A stretch of DNA of 64,000 nucleotides from Phreatobacter sp. (GTDB taxonomy: Bacteria > Pseudomonadota > Alphaproteobacteria > Rhizobiales > Phreatobacteraceae): positions 62,001-126,000 of the forward strand of contig NZ_JALHMP010000008.1 of assembly GCF_022843985.1 (NCBI RefSeq), read 5' to 3'. A program made the position numbers and the translations under genes. Below are positions 42,661-52,003 of this stretch, in pieces; positions within the stretch are counted from its first letter, which is position 1; each line of letters starts with the position of its first letter. The notes beneath the pieces were generated by a model that saw only the letters and a program-made list of their open reading frames with translations, ran no database searches and was not told the origin of the DNA.

Positions 42661-44622
42661 GTGACGGACCTGTTTCTGGCCTATCGGCGATCGGACAAAA
42701 GCCACGTCGACATCGTCCGGCAGGCGCTGGCCGAACTCGGAATCACCCTCCAGCCGGACATGGAGCCCAAGGGCCGAGGTGCGGCCAAGGCCCTGCGCGA
42801 GGCGGCGGCCGGTGCGCGCGCCCTTCTTGCCCTCTGGCCGGCCGAAATCCTCGACCCCACGGAGAATCATGCCGGCCTCTATAGCCTCGCCCGTACGGCC
42901 CACGAGGGCGGACGGCTCGCGGTGGCGCGGCTCAGTCCGCTGGCGACGGAGAGGCTGGAACCGCCGTTCGACTCCCTCCCGACGCCGGACCTGTCGGGCT
43001 GGCTCGCCGCCTCCGAGGCCAGGGATCCCGCCTGGCAGTCGCTGCTGGTGGCGCTGGGCGAAAAACTCGGGCGGCCGGGGCTTTCCGACCTCGCCCTGGC
43101 GATCGCCGCAGACCGCGAGGCCGACGGCGAGCCGGCCCAGATGGCCTTCGCCCGCCGCCATCCGAACGACCCGGCGACGCCAGCGATCTGGGCCCGTTTC
43201 GAGGGCACCGAGCGCGCGCGTTTCGCTGTCGCGTTCCGCAAGGTCCATAGCGTCCTGCAGGAACGCAACACGGTGGCACAGGACCGGCTGAAGGCACAGT
43301 TGGAGGCCTTCGCCGCCTATCTCAGGGCAGTGCGCACGGATCCGCAGGCGATTCCGCCCGACCCGCGCGAGGCGATGGTGGACGGCGTCGCGGCGCTGCG
43401 CGACAGCGTCGCGCGCCTGTCCGGAGAGAACGAGCGCTTGCGGACCGCGCTCGACCGAGCCGCGGCCGCACCGCCGCCTGTACCGGCCAATGGCAATCTC
43501 CCGCTCAGGTGGATCGGCATTTCTGCCGCCGCCTTTCTCGTCGGCAGCATGGCGGCGGTCGGCGTGACCGAATTCGCCGGCCCCCTGCGCGGCGATGCCC
43601 ATCCGCGGATCGCGGCCCTCGCGAAGGCTGCAGGCGAGAAGGCGCAGGTCGCCTCGAGTGCCGCTGCGGAACTCGCCCGGCTGCGCGAGCAGTCACGAAC
43701 GGCAGCCCGCCGCGCCGAAACGGCGGAAGCCAACCTGCGCATCGCCCGCACCCAGCTTGCCCACAGCCAGACGGAGTTGATCCAGCGGCAGACCCAGGCG
43801 GCCGAGGCGACGGGACAGGCACGGCGCAGCCAGACCGACCTGCAGGCCGCCCAGGCTGCCATCACCGTCGCCGAAAGGAAGGCGCAGGAGGCCACCGCCC
43901 GCGTCGCCAGCCTGGAGACCGAGGTGCAGTCGCTGCGCCAGATCGCGACCGCTGCAGCCGACAATGCCGTCACCACCGGCTCGGTCCGGCCGCGGCCGGC
44001 ACCCGAGGCCGCGACACCAGCCCCGGCTGCCGAGACCCAGGCTGCGCCACAGGTCGCGCCGATGCCGCAGCCGCGCCCCGAAGGCGATGTCACCGGCTCG
44101 GTTCCGCAAGACCCGCCGGCCGGGGTCGACGGGCCCTACCGTCACCGGCGGGACCGCTGGTCCTTCGCCATTCCCAAGGACTTCCGGCTCGACAGCGACA
44201 ACGACCTGCCGGGACCAATCAATTCGGTGCTGGTCCACGAGCATAACCGCGATGCCGTGGTTGTGGTCAGTGCCAACCACGCGCGCGGCGCCTGCACGGC
44301 ACAGGCCTGGTACTGGGACACGATCATCGAAGGCGCGCGTCCCCGCCGCGGTGAGGTGATGAGCGATGCTGGCCTGCCGCCAGGCGACGGCGGCTTCCGC
44401 GGGTTCTCGGTCCGCGGGCGCGGCGTGCTGCAGGGCGACCGCTTCCGCACCGATCTCGACTATTACGACCTGGTGGCGCAGAAGCGAAACGAGCCCGGCG
44501 TCGTCTATCTGGTCCAGGCCCGCTTCCCGCGCGCCATGGCGAGCGAGATGATCCGCGCAGTCAACACCATGTGGCGGGATTTCGAAGTGACCGGGCCGCG
44601 GGCCTATCCGACGCGTTGCTGA
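42661..44622 (+). CDS. TIR-like N-terminal domain, TM helix, coiled coil, uncharacterised C-terminal domain
   Basis: GTG start: MTDLFLAYRRSDKSHVDIVRQALAELGITLQPDMEPKGRGAAKALREAAAGARALLALWPAEIL; TM IGISAAAFLVGSMAAVGV; long coiled coil; C-terminal WSFAIPKDFRLDSD. Confidence 0.7.
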   Translation: MTDLFLAYRRSDKSHVDIVRQALAELGITLQPDMEPKGRGAAKALREAAAGARALLALWPAEILDPTENHAGLYSLARTAHEGGRLAVARLSPLATERLEPPFDSLPTPDLSGWLAASEARDPAWQSLLVALGEKLGRPGLSDLALAIAADREADGEPAQMAFARRHPNDPATPAIWARFEGTERARFAVAFRKVHSVLQERNTVAQDRLKAQLEAFAAYLRAVRTDPQAIPPDPREAMVDGVAALRDSVARLSGENERLRTALDRAAAAPPPVPANGNLPLRWIGISAAAFLVGSMAAVGVTEFAGPLRGDAHPRIAALAKAAGEKAQVASSAAAELARLREQSRTAARRAETAEANLRIARTQLAHSQTELIQRQTQAAEATGQARRSQTDLQAAQAAITVAERKAQEATARVASLETEVQSLRQIATAAADNAVTTGSVRPRPAPEAATPAPAAETQAAPQVAPMPQPRPEGDVTGSVPQDPPAGVDGPYRHRRDRWSFAIPKDFRLDSDNDLPGPINSVLVHEHNRDAVVVVSANHARGACTAQAWYWDTIIEGARPRRGEVMSDAGLPPGDGGFRGFSVRGRGVLQGDRFRTDLDYYDLVAQKRNEPGVVYLVQARFPRAMASEMIRAVNTMWRDFEVTGPRAYPTRC

Positions 44623-44646
44623 GGCGGCCCAGATAGCGGGACAACA

Positions 44647-44671
44647 AAAGGCCGCCCCGAGGGCGGCCTTT
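44647..44671. terminator. rho-independent-like hairpin
   Basis: AAAGGCCGCCC-cga-GGGCGGCCTTT between convergent genes. Confidence 0.75.
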
Positions 44672-44753
44672 CCGTTGCGCGGCGAAAGGAGAAGCCGCGA
44701 TCCATACCGCCTTCTCGCGAGATCTACTCCGGACGCTGCCCGGGATCACGGGG

Positions 44754-45650
44754 TCAGGGCGCCGTCTGGAATACTCTGCGCGCCAGGAAGCCGATGAAGG
44801 CGTCGGCCGCCGAGTTGCGCTCGCGGCCGGGGACCTCGATTGCCCAGGCTGCCAATTCGCGCGTCCTGTAGCCGCGCAGCAGCGGCACCAGCCGCCCGGC
44901 TTTCAGGTCGTCCTCGACGACGAAGCGCGGCTGCTGGATGATTCCGAGGCCGGCGAGGGCCGCCGCGAGAAGCGCATCGCCATTGTTGCTGGTGAGTCGC
45001 CCGGTGACGCGAACCCGCTGCTCGGCGCCGCCCGGTCCCCGGAACACCCAGCCGCGCCCCGGACTGGCATAGGCATAGAGCAGGCAATCATGGGTCATGA
45101 GATCGGTCGGCCGCTTCGGCGCGCCGTGGCGGTCGATATAGGCTGGCGTGGCACAGAGCACGGTCTCGATGAGCCCCAGCCGGGTCGCGGCGAACTCCGC
45201 AGCCGGCTGGTCACCGATCCTGACGGCGATGTCGAAGCCCTCATCGATCAGGTGCACCTGCCGGTCGAGGAGGACGACATCGACGCGCAGCCGTTGATGG
45301 GTCGCCATCAGTTCCGGCAGCCGCGGGACGATCTGGCGCCATCCGAAGGAGACGGGAACGCTCACCCGCAGCGTGCCGGCGACCTCTCGGGTGTCGTCGC
45401 CCGGCCGGACAAGGAGGTCGCGATAATGGTCGAGCACGGCGCGGGCGGTGTCCCGTACCCTCGCGCCGGCTTCGGTGAGGATCTGGCTGCGCGTGGTTCG
45501 GATCAGCAGCGGTTCGCCGATCCGTTCCTCCAGAGCGCGGATCAGGCGGCTGACCGCCATCCGGCTCAGGCCCAGTGAGGTTGCGGCCGCGGCCTGGCTG
45601 CCCAGTTCGATGGTGGCTGCGAAAGCCTCCAGTTCGGCGAAGCGGTCCAT
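44754..45650 (-). CDS. LysR family transcriptional regulator
   Basis: MDRFAELEAFAATIELGSQAAAATSLGLSRMAVSRLIRALEERIGEPLLIRTTRSQILTEAG. Confidence 0.95.
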   Translation of the reverse strand: MDRFAELEAFAATIELGSQAAAATSLGLSRMAVSRLIRALEERIGEPLLIRTTRSQILTEAGARVRDTARAVLDHYRDLLVRPGDDTREVAGTLRVSVPVSFGWRQIVPRLPELMATHQRLRVDVVLLDRQVHLIDEGFDIAVRIGDQPAAEFAATRLGLIETVLCATPAYIDRHGAPKRPTDLMTHDCLLYAYASPGRGWVFRGPGGAEQRVRVTGRLTSNNGDALLAAALAGLGIIQQPRFVVEDDLKAGRLVPLLRGYRTRELAAWAIEVPGRERNSAADAFIGFLARRVFQTAP

Positions 45651-45751
45651 GGGTTATTGTAACTACAATGATATAATTTGCTCAAGATTTAGTTTATTGT
45701 AACGAATTCCGATCATTGCGATAGATGGAGCCTCACCAAAGGCACGACGCC

Positions 45752-45870
45752 ATGACTACTCAGACCCCCTTTCCGTCACCGATCGCCGCCGGGCTCTGAC
45801 CGGTTTGCTGGCGACCCCGCTGCTGATGACAACGGCCGGCGTGAAGGGCGTCTACCTCGTTCAGCCCTGA
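45752..45870 (+). pseudogene. remnant of a Tat-signal-peptide gene (frameshifted and truncated)
   Basis: ATG frame MTTQTP then shifted frame LSVTDRRRALTGLLATPLLMTTAGVKGVYLVQP*; twin-arginine-like signal with no mature domain. Confidence 0.45.
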
Positions 45871-45943
45871 TCGCCGCTGCTGATGCTGCGGCAGTTCGAG
45901 CGCGGCGGCGGCCCGCCATTTCCCTCACACTCCAAGGTGTCAC

Positions 45944-46978
45944 ATGCGCCTGTTCAAACTGCCCAGCAGTGCTTTTCGCGCAGAACCTGTCTCGCCGTCG
46001 CGGCGAAGCTTCCTGGCCACGGCCTGTGCCTGCTGCGCGGTCTGGGCTCTGGACCCGTCCCCGGCCCTGGCGCAGTCGCCGGAGGTCCAGCGCCATATTG
46101 CCGCTGCGCGCGAGGCAGCCGGCACCGACCTTCTGTCCTATTTCGGCCTCAGCCAAATTGCCGCGCCGACACCCGGACTGCGGCAGGTATCCCCGGACGA
46201 ACTGATGCGCATGCCGACACCGCCTCCGGGCCGGGCCTTCGACAATCTGTTTTTCGTCGGCAATCGCTGGGTCAGCGCCTGGGCGCTCGTGACGTCGGAC
46301 GGCATCATCCTGATCGATGCCATGGACAATGACGACGAGGCCGAACACATCATCGATGCCGGCATGCGCAAGCTCGGCCTCGACCCCAGAGCGATCAAGA
46401 TGGTTGTCGTCACCCATGGCCACGGCGACCATTATGGCGGCGTCGGCTATCTCAAGCGGCAGTACAATCCCCGGATCATCGCCAGCACGCTCGACTGGAC
46501 GATGATGGAGACCGCGCTGGAATTCGACCGGCCGGACTGGGGACGCCCGCCGCAACGGGATGTCGCGGTCGACGACGGTGCCGTGCTGCGCCTCGGCGAC
46601 ACCACCGTCGATGTGCTGCTGACGCCTGGCCATACGATGGGAACGATCTCGCTGCTGTTCAACGCCAGAAGCGGCGGGACAACCCATCGGGTCATGCTCT
46701 GGGGTGGCACGGCGTTCAATTTCGGCCGCCGGAGCGATCGCCTGACCCGGATCAATGCCTATATCGACGGAACAGAGCGGGCGCGGGAGATCGCGGTGCG
46801 CCAGAATGTCGACGTTTTCATCTCCAACCACAATATCTACGACCGGGCGGTCGAGAAGCTGGAGACCATGGGCCGTGGCGGCCCGAATCCTTTCGTCCTC
46901 GGCTCGGCCACCACCGTCCGCGCCCTGACGGTCATGAACGAATGCGCCAAGGCGACCCGCGTGGTCTGGTCGAGCTGA
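45944..46978 (+). CDS. secreted metallo-beta-lactamase-fold hydrolase (B3-like) with Tat signal
   Basis: SRRSFLATACACCAVWALDPSPALAQ; VVVTHGHGDHYGGVGYL; LLTPGHTMGTISLLF. Confidence 0.92.
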   Translation: MRLFKLPSSAFRAEPVSPSRRSFLATACACCAVWALDPSPALAQSPEVQRHIAAAREAAGTDLLSYFGLSQIAAPTPGLRQVSPDELMRMPTPPPGRAFDNLFFVGNRWVSAWALVTSDGIILIDAMDNDDEAEHIIDAGMRKLGLDPRAIKMVVVTHGHGDHYGGVGYLKRQYNPRIIASTLDWTMMETALEFDRPDWGRPPQRDVAVDDGAVLRLGDTTVDVLLTPGHTMGTISLLFNARSGGTTHRVMLWGGTAFNFGRRSDRLTRINAYIDGTERAREIAVRQNVDVFISNHNIYDRAVEKLETMGRGGPNPFVLGSATTVRALTVMNECAKATRVVWSS

Positions 46979-47177
46979 CGGCGATCCCGGCGTCCGGCTG
47001 CCAGTCGGACGCCCCTGACAGAACGGCCGATCGGGACGGTGATCCGGCGATGCCGGACCCGGCGGGCGGCCTGCTCGCTCTGCCCATTCCCCAATCGGTT
47101 TTCCGGCCATCGCTTTCAGGCGCGCCTGCCGCCGTCAAGGCTGTGCAGCCTGTGCACGTCCCCGCCCGCGATCGTCC

Positions 47178-47206
47178 TTGACAGCCTTTTGTAAAAATAA
47201 TATTAC
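47178..47206 (+). promoter_or_regulatory. candidate sigma70 promoter of puc operon
   Basis: TTGACA (47178-47183) - 17 bp - TATTAC (47201-47206). Confidence 0.55.
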
Positions 47207-47207
47207 G
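47190..47207. promoter_or_regulatory. PpsR/CrtJ-like box 1 (degenerate)
   Basis: TGT-AAAAATAATATT-ACG = TGTN12ACG, one mismatch to TGTN12ACA. Confidence 0.55.
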
Positions 47208-47215
47208 CTACTAAA

Positions 47216-47233
47216 TGTCACATTAAATTGACA
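47216..47233. promoter_or_regulatory. PpsR/CrtJ-like box 2 (perfect)
   Basis: TGT-CACATTAAATTG-ACA = TGTN12ACA, 8 bp after box 1. Confidence 0.7.
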
Positions 47234-47460
47234 ATCGGCCCCCAATGGGGAGCTCGGCGAAGAGCCTGCCGGTGCTGTCAACCGCATTCTCTCCAATCGA
47301 CCGGCCACGCCGTTCCGGTGGGTCGCCCGCTCGAAGGATCGACATTCGGTGCATTTGCACCGGCAGGGACTGCGCGCTGGCTGACTGCGGCGCGCAGGAG
47401 GCACGTGGATATGCGGGTCTCACAACGGGAGCGGTCTTGTCTCACTGAGGGAGAAAGCAA

Positions 47461-47622
47461 GTGGACAGTTTAGACGATCCAAACAGGGTCTGGCCAACGG
47501 GTCTGACCATCAAGGAGTCGGAGGCGCTGCACAGGCACGTCATCGACGGGGCGCGCGTCTTCTTTGCGATTTCGCTTTTCGCGCACATTCTTGTCTATAT
47601 CTACTCCCCCTGGCTCAAGTGA
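47461..47622 (+). CDS. pucB: light-harvesting 2 (LH2) beta subunit
   Basis: GTG start with GGGAG upstream; MDSLDDPNRVWPTGLTIKESEALHRHVIDGARVFFAISLFAHILVYIYSPWLK: EALH, DGxRVF, AH and SPWL antenna motifs. Absent from the ORF track (53 aa). Confidence 0.95.
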   Translation: MDSLDDPNRVWPTGLTIKESEALHRHVIDGARVFFAISLFAHILVYIYSPWLK

Positions 47623-47634
47623 CGGGGACCTCCG

Positions 47635-48036
47635 ATGAACAACGGTAGAATATGGTGCGTGGTCAATCCCACTGTCGGATTGCCGCTCTTCCTCGGCAGC
47701 GTCGCGCTGATTTCCTTCACGGTGCACTTCGCCGTGCTGAACAACACGACCTGGGTGGCCGACTTCTTCAAGGGCAAGTCGCGGACGACGGCACGCGCCG
47801 ACACCGCGCCGATTGTTCCGGTCGCCTTGCGTGCCGACGGCAACACCACGGTCGTCCTCAACATCGCTCCGACCGGCAACAGCGATGCCACCCGGCAGGT
47901 CATTGTGACGGTGACGCCGCAAGGGACGGCCAGCGTGGTGGACAGCCCGCCACGCGCAACCGCCAGCGCGACGGAAGGCTCGACCCGTGTGGTGGACAGT
48001 CCACCTGGGCGAATAGCCTTCGCCACACGAGAATGA
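47635..48036 (+). CDS. pucA: light-harvesting 2 (LH2) alpha subunit with long C-terminal extension
   Basis: [48 protein letters not shown] aligns without gaps to classical PucA; His31 conserved; 133 aa total. Confidence 0.95.
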
Positions 48037-48289
48037 TGGCGCGCTCTGCCTTGAATGGGCGGTGACGAACAAGGCAGTCGTATGGTCCCGATCCGGACCT
48101 TGGATCCGGCTCTGGGGTCATGCGACTGCTCCCGCCAGACTTCGCGGCGCGGCCGGATCTGGTTGCGCCGGTCTCCTGTCAGGCCCTGCCTTGCCTCGCA
48201 AAGGCGCCCGGCCACCGTGCGATGCGGAACCGAAGGCAGGGCGTTTCGACGGTCCAAGCGGTTCACGACGCGATGAGCGGTGCGAGGCG

Positions 48290-49687
48290 ATGAATTCGAT
48301 CAGCCAGAGAGCGATGAGGGCTTGGGTCGGGCTCGGGCCGCGCTTCCTGCCCTTTGCGGATGCCGCCTCTGCCGGGGTGCCGCTGTCGCGCCTGCTGCGC
48401 CTGTCGCTGGTTCAGGTCTCCGTCGGCATGTCGCTGGTGCTGATGGTCGGCACACTGAACCGCGTCATGATCGTCGAGCTCGGCATCTCAGCCGCCCTTG
48501 TCGCAACCATGATCGCGCTGCCTGTGCTGTTCGCGCCGTTCCGGGTCTTGATCGGCCAGAGTTCAGACACCCATGTGTCGGTGCTCGGCTGGAAGCGGGT
48601 ACCCTTCCTGTTCAACGGCACGATGGTGCAGTTCGGCGGGCTGGCCCTCATGCCCTTCGCGCTGCTCGTGCTGTCGGGCGGCGGTGCGGCCAAGGACTAT
48701 CCGGTCTGGATCGGGCAGGCCGCCGCGGCCCTGTCGTTCCTGCTGGTCGGAGCCGGTGTCCATACCACGCAGACTGTGGCTCTGGCGCTTGCCACCGACC
48801 TGACCCGCGATGACCGCCGGCCAAAGGTGGTCGGGCTCATGTATGTGATGCTGCTGGTCGGAACCATCGCCAGCGCGCTCACCTTCGGCTATTTGCTAGA
48901 GGAGTTCACGCCGGGCCGGCTGATCCAGGTGATCCAGGGCACTGCCGTGGTGACGATCGTGCTGAATGGCATCGCGCTGTGGAAGCAGGAGGGCCTGAAG
49001 CGCATGACGGCCGCCGAACTGGCCGCTCCGCAACCGCGCTTCCGCCACTCGTTTGGACGCTACATGCAGGGCAAGGCGGCGCGACGCCGGCTGGTTGCCG
49101 TCGGCCTGGGCACGATGGCCTTCGGCATGCAGGACGTGCTGCTCGAGCCCTATGGCGGCGAGATTCTCGGGCTCTCGGTCGCCGACACCACCAAGCTGAC
49201 CGCCGCCTTGGCGGGGGGCGGGCTGATCGGCTTCGCCGCGGCCTCGCATGTGCTGAGCCGCGGCGCCGACGCCTTCGCGATTGCGGGGCTCGGCACGCTC
49301 GTCGGCATCCTCGGCTTTGCCGGGGTGATCGCCGCGGCCCCGGCAGGCTCCCCCATGCTCTTTGCCGCGGGCGTCATCGTCATCGGTGCCGGCGGCGGCC
49401 TGTTCGGGCATGGCACTCTGACCGCCGCGATGAACCATGCGCCGGAGGGCCAGGCCGGGCTGGCGCTCGGCGCCTGGGGCGCCATCCAGGCCACCGCGGC
49501 CGGGCTTGGCATCGCCCTCGGTGGCATTCTGCGCGACGTGGCCATGTCGATGGGAGCGCTGGAAGGCCTTGGCGCGGCACGGGGCTATATGATCGTCTAT
49601 GCAACGGAAATCGTTCTGCTCCTCGCAACCTTCGCAGCGATGTCCTCGCTGTTTCGGCGCGCCGGGAACCAGAGCAGCAGAGGCTAG
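48290..49687 (+). CDS. pucC: PucC/LhaA family antenna assembly MFS-type protein
   Basis: LSRLLRLSLVQVSVGMSLVLMVGTLNRVMIVELGISAALVATMIALPVLFAPFRVLIG...LGWKRVPFLFNGTMVQFGGLALMPFALLVL. ATG at 48290; the ORF-track start at 48062 is an extension. Confidence 0.95.
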   Translation: MNSISQRAMRAWVGLGPRFLPFADAASAGVPLSRLLRLSLVQVSVGMSLVLMVGTLNRVMIVELGISAALVATMIALPVLFAPFRVLIGQSSDTHVSVLGWKRVPFLFNGTMVQFGGLALMPFALLVLSGGGAAKDYPVWIGQAAAALSFLLVGAGVHTTQTVALALATDLTRDDRRPKVVGLMYVMLLVGTIASALTFGYLLEEFTPGRLIQVIQGTAVVTIVLNGIALWKQEGLKRMTAAELAAPQPRFRHSFGRYMQGKAARRRLVAVGLGTMAFGMQDVLLEPYGGEILGLSVADTTKLTAALAGGGLIGFAAASHVLSRGADAFAIAGLGTLVGILGFAGVIAAAPAGSPMLFAAGVIVIGAGGGLFGHGTLTAAMNHAPEGQAGLALGAWGAIQATAAGLGIALGGILRDVAMSMGALEGLGAARGYMIVYATEIVLLLATFAAMSSLFRRAGNQSSRG

Positions 49688-49723
49688 CGGCGCGCAGCGG
49701 CCGTGGAACCGGGACATCGGGAC

Positions 49724-50320
49724 ATGACACAGACAATCTGCAAACTTTTCGGCACGCCGAGCCAGGCGACAGAGGCTGCGGACAGGCTCCGAGCCACCGG
49801 CTATCGCCAAGTTTTCGTGTTTCTCGGTGCTCCATCCGGATCCGACGAGACAGAACCCGCAGCCGATCCGGGCGCCGTCAAGGCGATGATGGACGCCTAT
49901 ATCTACAAGCCCCACGCGGAGATCTATGCCCGTCACCTCGCCAAGGGCGCCAGCCTGGTAATGGTCCACGCCTATTGGGGCACCGCGCAGAAGGCGATCC
50001 GTCTGCTCAAGAGCTTCGATCCCCTGCCCGACGCCATCCCGAAACCGCCGATCCCAAGCCGCCTCATCTACAACCCGCGCACGCCGTTCTCGAGCACGTT
50101 CGAACTGCCGCTACTCACCGAGAAGGTGAGATATCCAGCCGAGACCATCTTTGGAACCCCTTCCCTGACCAGACGGCCGCGTCTGGTCACCTCCCGCCTG
50201 TTTCCGATCCTGTCGGGTGGCGCGTCACCGTTCTCCGGCCTGTTCAACCTGCCGCTCCTGACCAAGTCCAAGACCCCGTTTTCGTCGCTGTTCCGGCTGC
50301 CGTTGCTGAAGCGCCGGTAG
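49724..50320 (+). CDS. uncharacterised protein: N-terminal GSP17M/YflT-like domain plus three C-terminal PFSxxFxLPLL repeats
   Basis: ICKLFGTPSQATEAADRLRATGYRQVFVF...GASLVMVHAYWGTAQKAIRLLKSFDP; repeats TPFSSTFELPLLT, SPFSGLFNLPLLT, TPFSSLFRLPLLK. Confidence 0.75.
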   Translation: MTQTICKLFGTPSQATEAADRLRATGYRQVFVFLGAPSGSDETEPAADPGAVKAMMDAYIYKPHAEIYARHLAKGASLVMVHAYWGTAQKAIRLLKSFDPLPDAIPKPPIPSRLIYNPRTPFSSTFELPLLTEKVRYPAETIFGTPSLTRRPRLVTSRLFPILSGGASPFSGLFNLPLLTKSKTPFSSLFRLPLLKRR

Positions 50321-50403
50321 GAAAAGGCGAGCGCGTTGCAGATCCGCCGGTCGCGGCCGGCGGCCATCTCCATTCTTCGGGACCGTGGTCAGGCGCGCCA
50401 GTG

Positions 50404-51535
50404 TCAGTCCACGTCGTCCGTGTCGCCTGCCTTGGTGCCATAGGCGCGCATGGCGAGGGTTGCCTCCATGAAGCCGTCGAGGTCACCGTCGAGAACCTCA
50501 GACGGCACGCCCGAGGTCTTTCCGGTGCGGAGATCCTTCACGAGCTGGTAGGGCTGCAGCACGTAAGAACGGATCTGATGGCCCCAGCCGATATCGGTCT
50601 TGGCGGCGAATTCAGCGGCGGCGGCCTCCTCGCGAATCTTCAGCTCGCGCTCGTAGAGCTTGGCGCGCAGCATCTGCCAGGCCACCGCCCGGTTGGCGTG
50701 CTGAGAGCGTGAGCCTTCCGACACGACCATGACGCCGGTCGGATTGTGGACCAGGCGCACGGCCGATTCGGTCTTGTTGACGTGCTGGCCACCGGCACCG
50801 CCCGAGCGCATCGTGTCGACGCGCACGTCGCTCTCATTGATCTGGATGTCGATCTTGTCGTCCACCACCGGATAGACCGTCGCGGAAGCGAAGGACGTAT
50901 GGCGTCGGGCATTGGAATCGAAGGGCGAGATGCGCACCAGCCGGTGCACGCCAGCTTCCGTCTTCAGCCAGCCATAGGCATTGTGCCCCTTGATCAGCAG
51001 CGTCGTCGATTTGATGCCGGCCTCTTCGCCGGCACTCTCCTCGACCACCTCGACCTTGAAGCCGCGGCGCTCGGCCCAGCGCGTGTACATGCGCATGAGC
51101 ATCAAGGCCCAGTCCTGGCTCTCGGTGCCGCCGGCCCCGGCATGGACCTCCAGATAGGTGTCGTTGCTGTCGGCCTCGCCGGAGAGCAGCGCCTCGAGCT
51201 GCAGGCGCTCGGCGCGCTTGCGAGCCTCGACAAGCGCCCTGGCGGCCTCGTCCAGCGTCGCCGTGTCCCCCTCGTCCTCGGCCATCTCGGCGAGTTCGAG
51301 ATTGTCGGAGAGCTCGCGGCTGATCTCGGTCAGCGCATTCATGCGGCTGTCGAGCGCATTGCGCTCCTGCATGACCTTCTGCGCCTTCTCCGGATCGTTC
51401 CAGAGGTCGTTGGTTTCGGCGAGGGCGTTCAGTTCGGCGAGACGTTTGACCGAGACATCCCAGTCAAAGATGCCTCCTCAGGAGCCCGACAGACTCCTTG
51501 ATGGCCTCGGCGGTGGCGACGATGTCGGCACGCAT
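50404..51535 (-). CDS. prfB: peptide chain release factor 2, with +1 programmed frameshift
   Basis: Upstream frame MRADIVATAEAIKESVGLLRRHL-TGA; shifted frame DWDVSVKRLAELNALAETNDLWNDPEKAQKVMQERN...; GGQHVNK motif. SD AGGAGG at 51473-51478 and CTTTGAC at 51463-51469 (minus strand). Confidence 0.96.
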
Positions 51536-52003
51536 GGGGCACTTCCCTTCAGGGTGGACGAAAAAGAGGGCGCACCCTAGTCACGTGCGCCCCGGTGTCA
51601 ATCGTCGCCGGCCGCGGCAAGGAGCCCGGCGCGCCGATCGGTGCCAGATCGTGAGGTCGAGGCAGAACGGGCAAGGGCGGACCTTGATCGGATTGCGCGG
51701 AGAGGCGACGACGACGGACCCGCAACGCGCTTCACCTATTGCATGGCGGGCGGCAAGGGACGAGTTCTGGCGAGACGGCGCGCCCTCCGCCCTGCCCTGC
51801 CAGTCCTGCATTTTCGGTGGATGACGCCCCACCCTCGCTGTAGCCGGCACCCGTTCGATCTTAGGCTCGATGCCGTCGGCCTTGCAGCCATGCGCGGCGG
51901 CCAAGAGTGTGGCATTCGCAGGTCCCAACGGCACGCCAGGTGTCCCTGCCATGCTGCATGGCCTAGAGTGAGGCGCAACCGTCAGGATGCAGGAGGGACC
52001 GTC

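Follow-up and report, generated by a model that had tools for sequence, protein, structure and literature searches.

LH2 is the textbook minimal membrane ring, built from two peptides of 50 residues. Puc2A of Rhodobacter sphaeroides is an LH2 alpha chain with a very long C-terminal extension. When it was His-tagged at the C-terminus, Puc2A yielded an LH2-2 complex, as described in a passage of PMC10101016, and this complex sets a precedent for a retained C-terminus; Puc2A is said to be absent from wild-type LH2 (part of the discussion in PMC9618040). Pro/Ala extensions that run past the alpha core on the periplasmic side are found in Rubrivivax gelatinosus and in the PucA b/c chains of Rps. 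palustris. An assembly role has been proposed for the R. gelatinosus extension (as stated in PMC5069747), and work on R. gelatinosus is cited in PMC5783997 and PMC4949548. Rps. palustris LH2 further carries a gamma chain on its cytoplasmic side, made of six repeats of 15 residues with serine-ligated BChl; according to the section of PMC9618040 that deals with it, BLASTp detected gamma only in Rhodopseudomonas.

The DNA analysed here is a window of 64,000 nucleotides (G000:C8:62001-126000) from a Phreatobacter genome of 4.33 Mb. It contains a puc operon whose alpha chain, PucA, also extends past the core, by LH2 topology on the periplasmic side. The Rps. palustris extension is much shorter and of low complexity, whereas that of Phreatobacter has 85 residues and a conserved two-strand module. 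Puc2A, which is likened to it by description, is a second copy beside a normal Puc1A, whereas the tailed chain is the sole LH2 alpha found in a scan of the whole Phreatobacter genome. LH2 alpha extensions as such are already known. The two-strand module and its spread are apparently new and not described in the open-access literature: a full-text search of that literature, which leaves subscription papers mostly uncovered, gave no recognisable account of an LH2 alpha hairpin tail or of the repeat protein encoded beside it.

If many alphaproteobacterial LH2 rings carry the module and nearly all sampled puc operons encode the repeat protein, then the two-peptide model covers only part of natural LH2. 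Through the tail one could probe what determines the size, stability and packing of the ring, and through the repeat protein how widely extra pigment ribbons like gamma occur. Since a tail of 85 residues must cross the membrane behind a single helix, it also bears on LH2 insertion, which may involve Sec rather than YidC alone.

The puc operon and the alpha core

The operon reads pucB, pucA, pucC and then an unannotated gene for a 198-aa protein, all on the forward strand (Table 1). Homologues of pucB occur in all the puc regions compared. The start of pucC was set at the ATG at 48290; the Pfam search gave the gene from 48293. Upstream of pucB lies a TGT-N12-ACA palindrome, a candidate operator of the PpsR/CrtJ type; seven such palindromes occur in the window against 3.1 expected. 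Within 44000-52000 no Rfam families were found. Besides the LH2 pair of the window, the LHC-family genes of the genome comprise one further pair on contig C20, presumably LH1. A protein with a metallo-beta-lactamase fold is encoded upstream of puc (45944-46978, forward strand); it is related to subclass B3 models but scores far under their cut-offs (best 138 of 500 bits), and a gene of this fold also lies upstream of puc in two other Phreatobacter (L019 and L020).

Table 1. Positions of the puc features within the window
Feature	Position	Strand	Remarks
PpsR/CrtJ-type operator candidate, TGT-N12-ACA palindrome	47216-47233	.	228 bp upstream of pucB start
pucB, LH2 beta chain, 53 aa, GTG start	47461-47622	+	Pfam LHC 36.4 bits against cut-off 23
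pucA, LH2 alpha chain, 133 aa, stop included	47635-48036	+	ORF, structure matches, Pfam
Alpha core, residues 1-48	47635-47778	+	Transmembrane helix, His31 ligand position, Trp40, Phe44/Phe45
Tail linker, residues 49-67	47779-47835	+	Poorly alignable beyond genus
Strand-loop-strand module, residues 68-99	47836-47931	+	
Strand motif VVLNIAP, residues 73-79	47851-47871	+	
Strand motif VIVTVTP, residues 89-95	47899-47919	+	
Lineage-specific Pro/Ser-rich end, residues 100-133	47932-48033	+	VVDSPP at 47935 and 47989
RNA hairpin between pucA and pucC (predicted)	48073-48130	+	MFE of folded stretch -54.7 kcal/mol, z -3.2
pucC, LH2 assembly protein	48290-49687	+	Pfam PUCC 471.8 bits
Unannotated puc-linked protein, 198 aa	49724-50320	+	N-terminal domain (residues 1-105) and 16-residue repeats

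Judged by its sequence, the pucA product is a genuine LH2 alpha chain, and it is predicted to assemble into a ring. Its residues 1-48/51 match LH2 alphas of known structure (best match 7ze3_A, E 1.2e-18, residues 1-51), and the Pfam family LHC (PF00556) covers residues 4-41 with 42.3 bits against a cut-off of 23. Both H31, the histidine ligand of B850, and W40, the Trp after the helix, are invariant in the alignments, and the gene is flanked by pucB immediately upstream and by pucC downstream. A preliminary description of this DNA had placed the end of the core near residue 48, in a frame that stays open to residue 133. The open reading frame bears this out and reproduces the sequence given there: residue 48 maps to 47776, about 85 residues follow the usual alpha end, and the full-length chain has a calculated mass of about 13.9 kDa. 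Solved LH2 alphas cover residues 1-47 up to 1-64 of PucA, and the tail beyond is matched by none of them.

Phe44-Phe45 (47764-47769) stand where Tyr/Trp hydrogen-bond donors to B850 are usual. A blue-shifted LH2 is therefore predicted, LH3-like and absorbing at about 820-840 nm, on the basis of mutant and LH3 data quoted in part of PMC8775250. Tyr-Trp is kept at alpha positions 44-45 in Phreatobacter G005 and in the Elioraea/Acetobacteraceae loci L023, L025 and L026.

Constraint, composition and proposed role of the tail

Only the unusual length of PucA speaks for an artefact, in which a frameshift or a lost stop joined a short alpha chain to unrelated sequence, and the preliminary description had named a sequencing error that removes a stop as one finding that would overturn its reading. 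An LH2 alpha match was obtained in five of 12 Phreatobacter genomes (the source genome and 11 others), and all five have the full tail; the four other PucA chains are 76-86% identical to that of the window and their tails are complete. Across the five, pN/pS from summed Nei-Gojobori counts is 0.12 for the core and 0.32 for the whole tail; within the tail it rises from 0.15 in the linker to 0.31 in the strand module and 0.40 in the end. When the tail DNA of two genome pairs was read in the two shifted frames, pN was close to or above pS and stops were present. These codon counts show that the tail is under purifying selection, and in the pucA frame only. With five open frames, this constraint and homologous tails elsewhere (see below), an artefact is so improbable that it can be set aside.

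The RNA hairpin predicted after pucA starts 37 bases past the stop. Its main stem recurs after the pucA stop in all three other Phreatobacter loci that were folded (z -1.7, -3.8 and -4.2), and base changes in the genus fall on both sides of the stem, while three Elioraea/Acetobacteraceae stretches after pucA fold differently (z -2.4, -3.5 and -1.0). With a conserved hairpin just past the stop, the end of the long frame seems in Phreatobacter also to be the end of the mRNA segment. The hairpin is probably an intercistronic element for mRNA processing or stabilization that sets the 3' end or the stability of the pucBA mRNA.

When aligned with its relatives, the tail resolves into three parts: first a linker, then the two-strand module, and last a Pro-rich end that varies. 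It is not a short extension of the Pro/Ala type, given its length and its two conserved amphipathic strand motifs. The preliminary description had presented the end as an 18-aa repeat in which VVDSPP recurs with a 54-bp period. The period is correct and a duplication does exist; however, it consists of one full and one partial copy, with identity at nine of 15 residues and at 29 of 48 bases. Compared with 300 shuffles of the window tail it stands out (p about 0.003), and it was not reported by Tandem Repeats Finder at a score of 30. The first copy is degenerate in two of the five Phreatobacter alphas and the second is kept in all five, as VVDSPP in four and as VVDSPQ in G005. Within these alignments the duplication is a minor, lineage-specific feature and the least general part of the tail; because it is lineage-specific, it was ruled out as the functional core.

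The more widely conserved repeat is that of the two strand motifs, with hydrophobic residues at alternate positions and Pro at the strand end (phi-x-phi-t-phi-x-P). In the corresponding places Elioraea has YTVNVMP and FVVTISP, G613 has FVVSVTP twice, and G573 has FTVTVAP and FVVKIGP; nine alphas, taken from Phreatobacter, Elioraea and an Acetobacteraceae bacterium, all share P79, V91, T92 and P95. Ten of 15 tails contain the motif, with 17 occurrences in all, whereas 2000 shuffles gave 0.52 on average and never more than 4; the contrast is to be read with the pattern having been written after inspection of the sequences. The 15 tails, chosen without near-duplicates, take in two of five from Phreatobacter, three of five from Elioraea/Acetobacteraceae, two of four from the f22 genomes and one of G487/G452, and do not include G575. 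An AlphaFold model of PucA has DSSP strands at residues 72-79 and 88-96, which at a mean pLDDT of 40, with no residue above 70, are a hint only; a Foldseek search with this tail model found nothing at E <= 0.001, which at such a pLDDT says little.

On which side of the membrane the tail lies follows from LH2 topology. The alpha C-terminus is periplasmic in solved LH2 (as described in a section of PMC7880592), in agreement with the periplasmic location that had been suggested for the tail, and by the established N-in/C-out insertion it would be left hanging in the periplasm. We tentatively propose, at rather less than even probability, that the tail is retained there as a beta-hairpin and staples adjacent subunits of the LH2 ring together. 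The two strands would form a hairpin that lies against those of the adjacent alphas, either paired or packed; the apolar side of an amphipathic hairpin has to be covered by something, and the nearest candidates would be the identical hairpins within the ring. Paired tails would staple the ring on its periplasmic face and so aid assembly or stability of the complex, and the VVDSPP end would probably serve as a flexible spacer. Geometrically, 18 strands at a tilt of 36-45 degrees give a diameter of 31-36 A, which was counted for the staple since it is near the 35.7 A of the alpha-helix ring of nonameric LH2 (a value given in a passage of PMC9618040).

The tail might instead be a pro-sequence, needed in insertion or ring assembly and then cut by a periplasmic protease to leave a mature chain of about 50-60 residues. 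The Arg/Ala-rich linker SRTTARAD after the core looks as though it could be accessible to a protease, the Pro-rich end varies freely, and a faint lower band suggested partial processing of the longest Rps. palustris alpha (reported in part of PMC9618040). Conservation, however, resides in the strand module, away from the putative cleavage site, and the linker aligns poorly outside the genus. A cleaved tail is considered rather unlikely.

Distribution and descent of the tail

The preliminary description had held that a few species have shorter extensions, and had suggested a search for homologous tails in other PucA sequences. Such tails were found in Phreatobacter, in other families of the order and in Elioraea/Acetobacteraceae. 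In the order sample, an LH2 alpha match was present in 23 of 397 genomes, and 18 of these 23 encode one or more alphas that reach at least 78 aa, so that long tails are not as confined as had been thought; the strand-motif tail type is present in 12 of the 23. One row (G575 L076) was dropped from these counts for an incomplete locus, and further alpha matches of G526 and G464 were left out. The class sample gave an LH2 alpha match in 12 of 385 genomes, with tails of more than 60 residues only in the window genome and in G155. In the phylum sample there were matches in eight of 339 genomes, and the alphas of five genomes of family f72 are 98-120 aa long. This sample and that of the class overlap (at least in G000 and G088) and are not independent. 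A collection of named genomes had the strand-motif tail in all eight loci (three Phreatobacter, four Elioraea and one Acetobacteraceae bacterium), a count biased towards tails since the scan was partly seeded with tail peptides. No relatives were found on plasmids or viral contigs.

Profiles of the tails alone, with the cores removed, were compared by HHalign. Phreatobacter against Elioraea gave a probability of 34%, Phreatobacter against G613/G573 72% and Elioraea against G613/G573 95%; with 20 column shuffles per comparison, the highest control values were 1.5 to 3.9. These values support common ancestry of the tails in the three groups, as far as profile comparison can tell. The Elioraea group comprised four of the five Elioraea/Acetobacteraceae alphas (L024, near-identical to L023, was left out), and the tails of G012, G059, G487/G452 and G575 stood outside all groups. 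The tails of G459, G522, G592 and G687, which have a single strand, gave 40% to G613/G573 and 3-8% to the other two groups.

A second class of tails, the PDG class, was found in other alphaproteobacterial LH2 alphas (G034, G155, G644, G059 and family f72). They have about 40-75 residues and a strand-like motif such as MTVILPDGRTARLVIEDP; the [LM]PDG motif is present in four of the five f72 genomes (L139-L143). Like the window tail they are alpha extensions with a strand-like motif, but they fall in a separate PucC clade (four are in the tree). At 0.2-0.4% in HHalign, which is the level of the shuffles, they were rejected as homologues of the window tail at this sensitivity.

The same comparisons bear on whether the tail is an unstructured spacer, that is, a longer form of the R. 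gelatinosus and Rps. palustris Pro/Ala extensions that acts on assembly or packing by bulk only. The tail is rich in Pro, Ser, Thr and Ala, and the confidence of its model is low. In addition, the C-terminal extension of R. gelatinosus appears to have a role in LH2 assembly (from a passage of PMC5069747), and 17 untraced residues of the Rps. palustris PucB alpha were modelled as unstructured (from a passage of PMC9618040). However, different families have kept both the strand motif and its spacing, and their tails can be aligned as profiles, neither of which a pure spacer needs, and we consider this reading unlikely.

In a PucC tree of 28 rows (L092 was left out, being from the same genome as L021), three groups match the tail type: six operons have PDG-type or short tails, five are tailless and 17 have the strand-motif tail. 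The strand-motif type is thus found in 17 of 17 members of one clade, and a tail in none of the five of its sister clade, in which G207 has alphas of 59 and 47 aa. The first group splits off with a support of 100/98, and the 17-member clade has 96/92; forks further inside are less well supported, and the branch of G644 is long. Only one strand motif is present in the tails of G459, G522, G592 and G687, and one by the strict pattern in G012. On this tree, the ancestor of one puc-operon clade probably had the strand module already, and the module was then kept in that clade. The puc operon of Elioraea/Acetobacteraceae (L022-L026) nests in a PucC clade that otherwise comes from the order of the window. 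Because these operons lie inside the 17 and away from their own order, the puc operon, tail included, was probably moved between orders by horizontal transfer.

Several of these observations count against a hairpin that staples the ring. Clade members with a single strand would be ill-suited to a closed crown of two strands per subunit. LH2 alphas that lack a tail, those of the sister clade and of solved structures, assemble all the same, and the module, with a pN/pS of 0.31, is less constrained than the core at 0.12. For the genus Elioraea a single phenotype was found, that of E. tepida, whose PucA is outside the compared set; a passage of PMC8781829 describes no clear LH2 absorption in its cells despite a pucBAC operon.

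The 198-aa puc-linked repeat protein

With a profile built from 15 members (A3), a homologue of the 198-aa protein was found in all 29 puc regions examined, 14 of which had not been used in building the profile; the 29 regions come from 28 genomes, since L021 and L092 are the same genome. In the class sample the family is present in 11 of 12 LH2 genomes and in five of 373 others, those five having the N-terminal part only. The sole LH2 genome of that sample without the family is G187, where its absence was confirmed by a further search. The match in G155 spans model positions 2-104 and belongs to an open frame with one clear repeat unit. Four f30 genomes, with LH2-like alphas starting MADTDGQ or MAYTDGQ, have partial matches to the N-terminal domain only. 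In the phylum sample the family is present in seven of eight LH2 genomes against eight of 331 others, these eight matches being confined to about the first 135 model positions. The f72 genomes (L139-L143) have divergent members of the family near their tailed alphas.

The C-terminal part has a period of exactly 16 residues. At lag 16 the identity reaches 0.192, compared with 0.081 in shuffled sequences (z 20.5), and lag 32 gives a z of 16.4 (26 of the 29 proteins). The unit, called 89 times in 21 of the 29 proteins after near-duplicates had been left out, is N-P-x-P-[LF]-S-S-x-[LF]-G-[LM]-P-x-L-S-K, with Ser6 in 70, Gly10 in 68 and Leu14 in 82 of the 89; 47 of the 68 gaps between called units are of 16 residues. 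In an AlphaFold model, residues 1-105 are well folded (block means mostly 75-91) and the repeats are extended, at low confidence. The N-terminal domain resembles ferredoxin folds of the CutA/PII type with a best Z of 7.9, below the level of trust advised for the tool, and plain Foldseek with the model found nothing at E <= 0.001. YflT (PF11181) matched the N-terminal part weakly in two of the 15 members (best E 0.0014) and did not match the member in the window; no Pfam or NCBIfam name for the family was convincing.

Like the Rps. palustris gamma chain, with its period of 15 and one Ser ligand per repeat, the 198-aa protein has short tandem repeats, of period 16, with a conserved Ser. Unlike gamma, it has an extra folded N-terminal domain, is encoded beside the puc genes and is widespread. 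A search of the 15-member profile against PDB sequences found no gamma chain at E <= 10, and no chain of any kind was matched with a meaningful E-value, although homology can be hidden by short repeats. The likeness would be one of design, with no homology detected. The protein is a candidate LH2 subunit or assembly factor, and its gene may matter more than the tail.

The tail could also be a docking site for a periplasmic or membrane partner, such as a cytochrome or a neighbouring complex, rather than for neighbouring alphas. Amphipathic strands that end in Pro would suit beta-augmentation with another protein, and the tail types follow distinct operon lineages. Yet among homologues of six window genes in the 29 puc regions, none emerged as a partner gene confined to the tailed clade. 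The 198-aa protein, which has no evident export signal on reading of its sequence, was rejected as a tail-specific partner because it occurs both with and without tails. Docking of this kind is regarded as improbable.

If the stapling hairpin is combined with the repeat protein, LH2 of this lineage might be decorated on both faces, by a periplasmic beta-crown of nine hairpins and by a cytoplasmic ribbon of the repeat protein, extended round the ring. Each repeat would contact one alpha-beta unit and would perhaps bind extra bacteriochlorophyll through the conserved serine, like the unrelated-looking gamma chain of Rhodopseudomonas; this composite picture is speculative and improbable as a whole.

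PucE of R. capsulatus is a 14-kDa protein. The pucDE genes of R. capsulatus, which are named in a passage of PMC4634722, could be related to the 198-aa protein. The place of the 198-aa gene in the operon varies between the three groups of the PucC tree: it follows pucC in the 17, lies between pucA and pucC in the five, and in the six is mostly found upstream on the opposite strand, with G034 having it after pucC.
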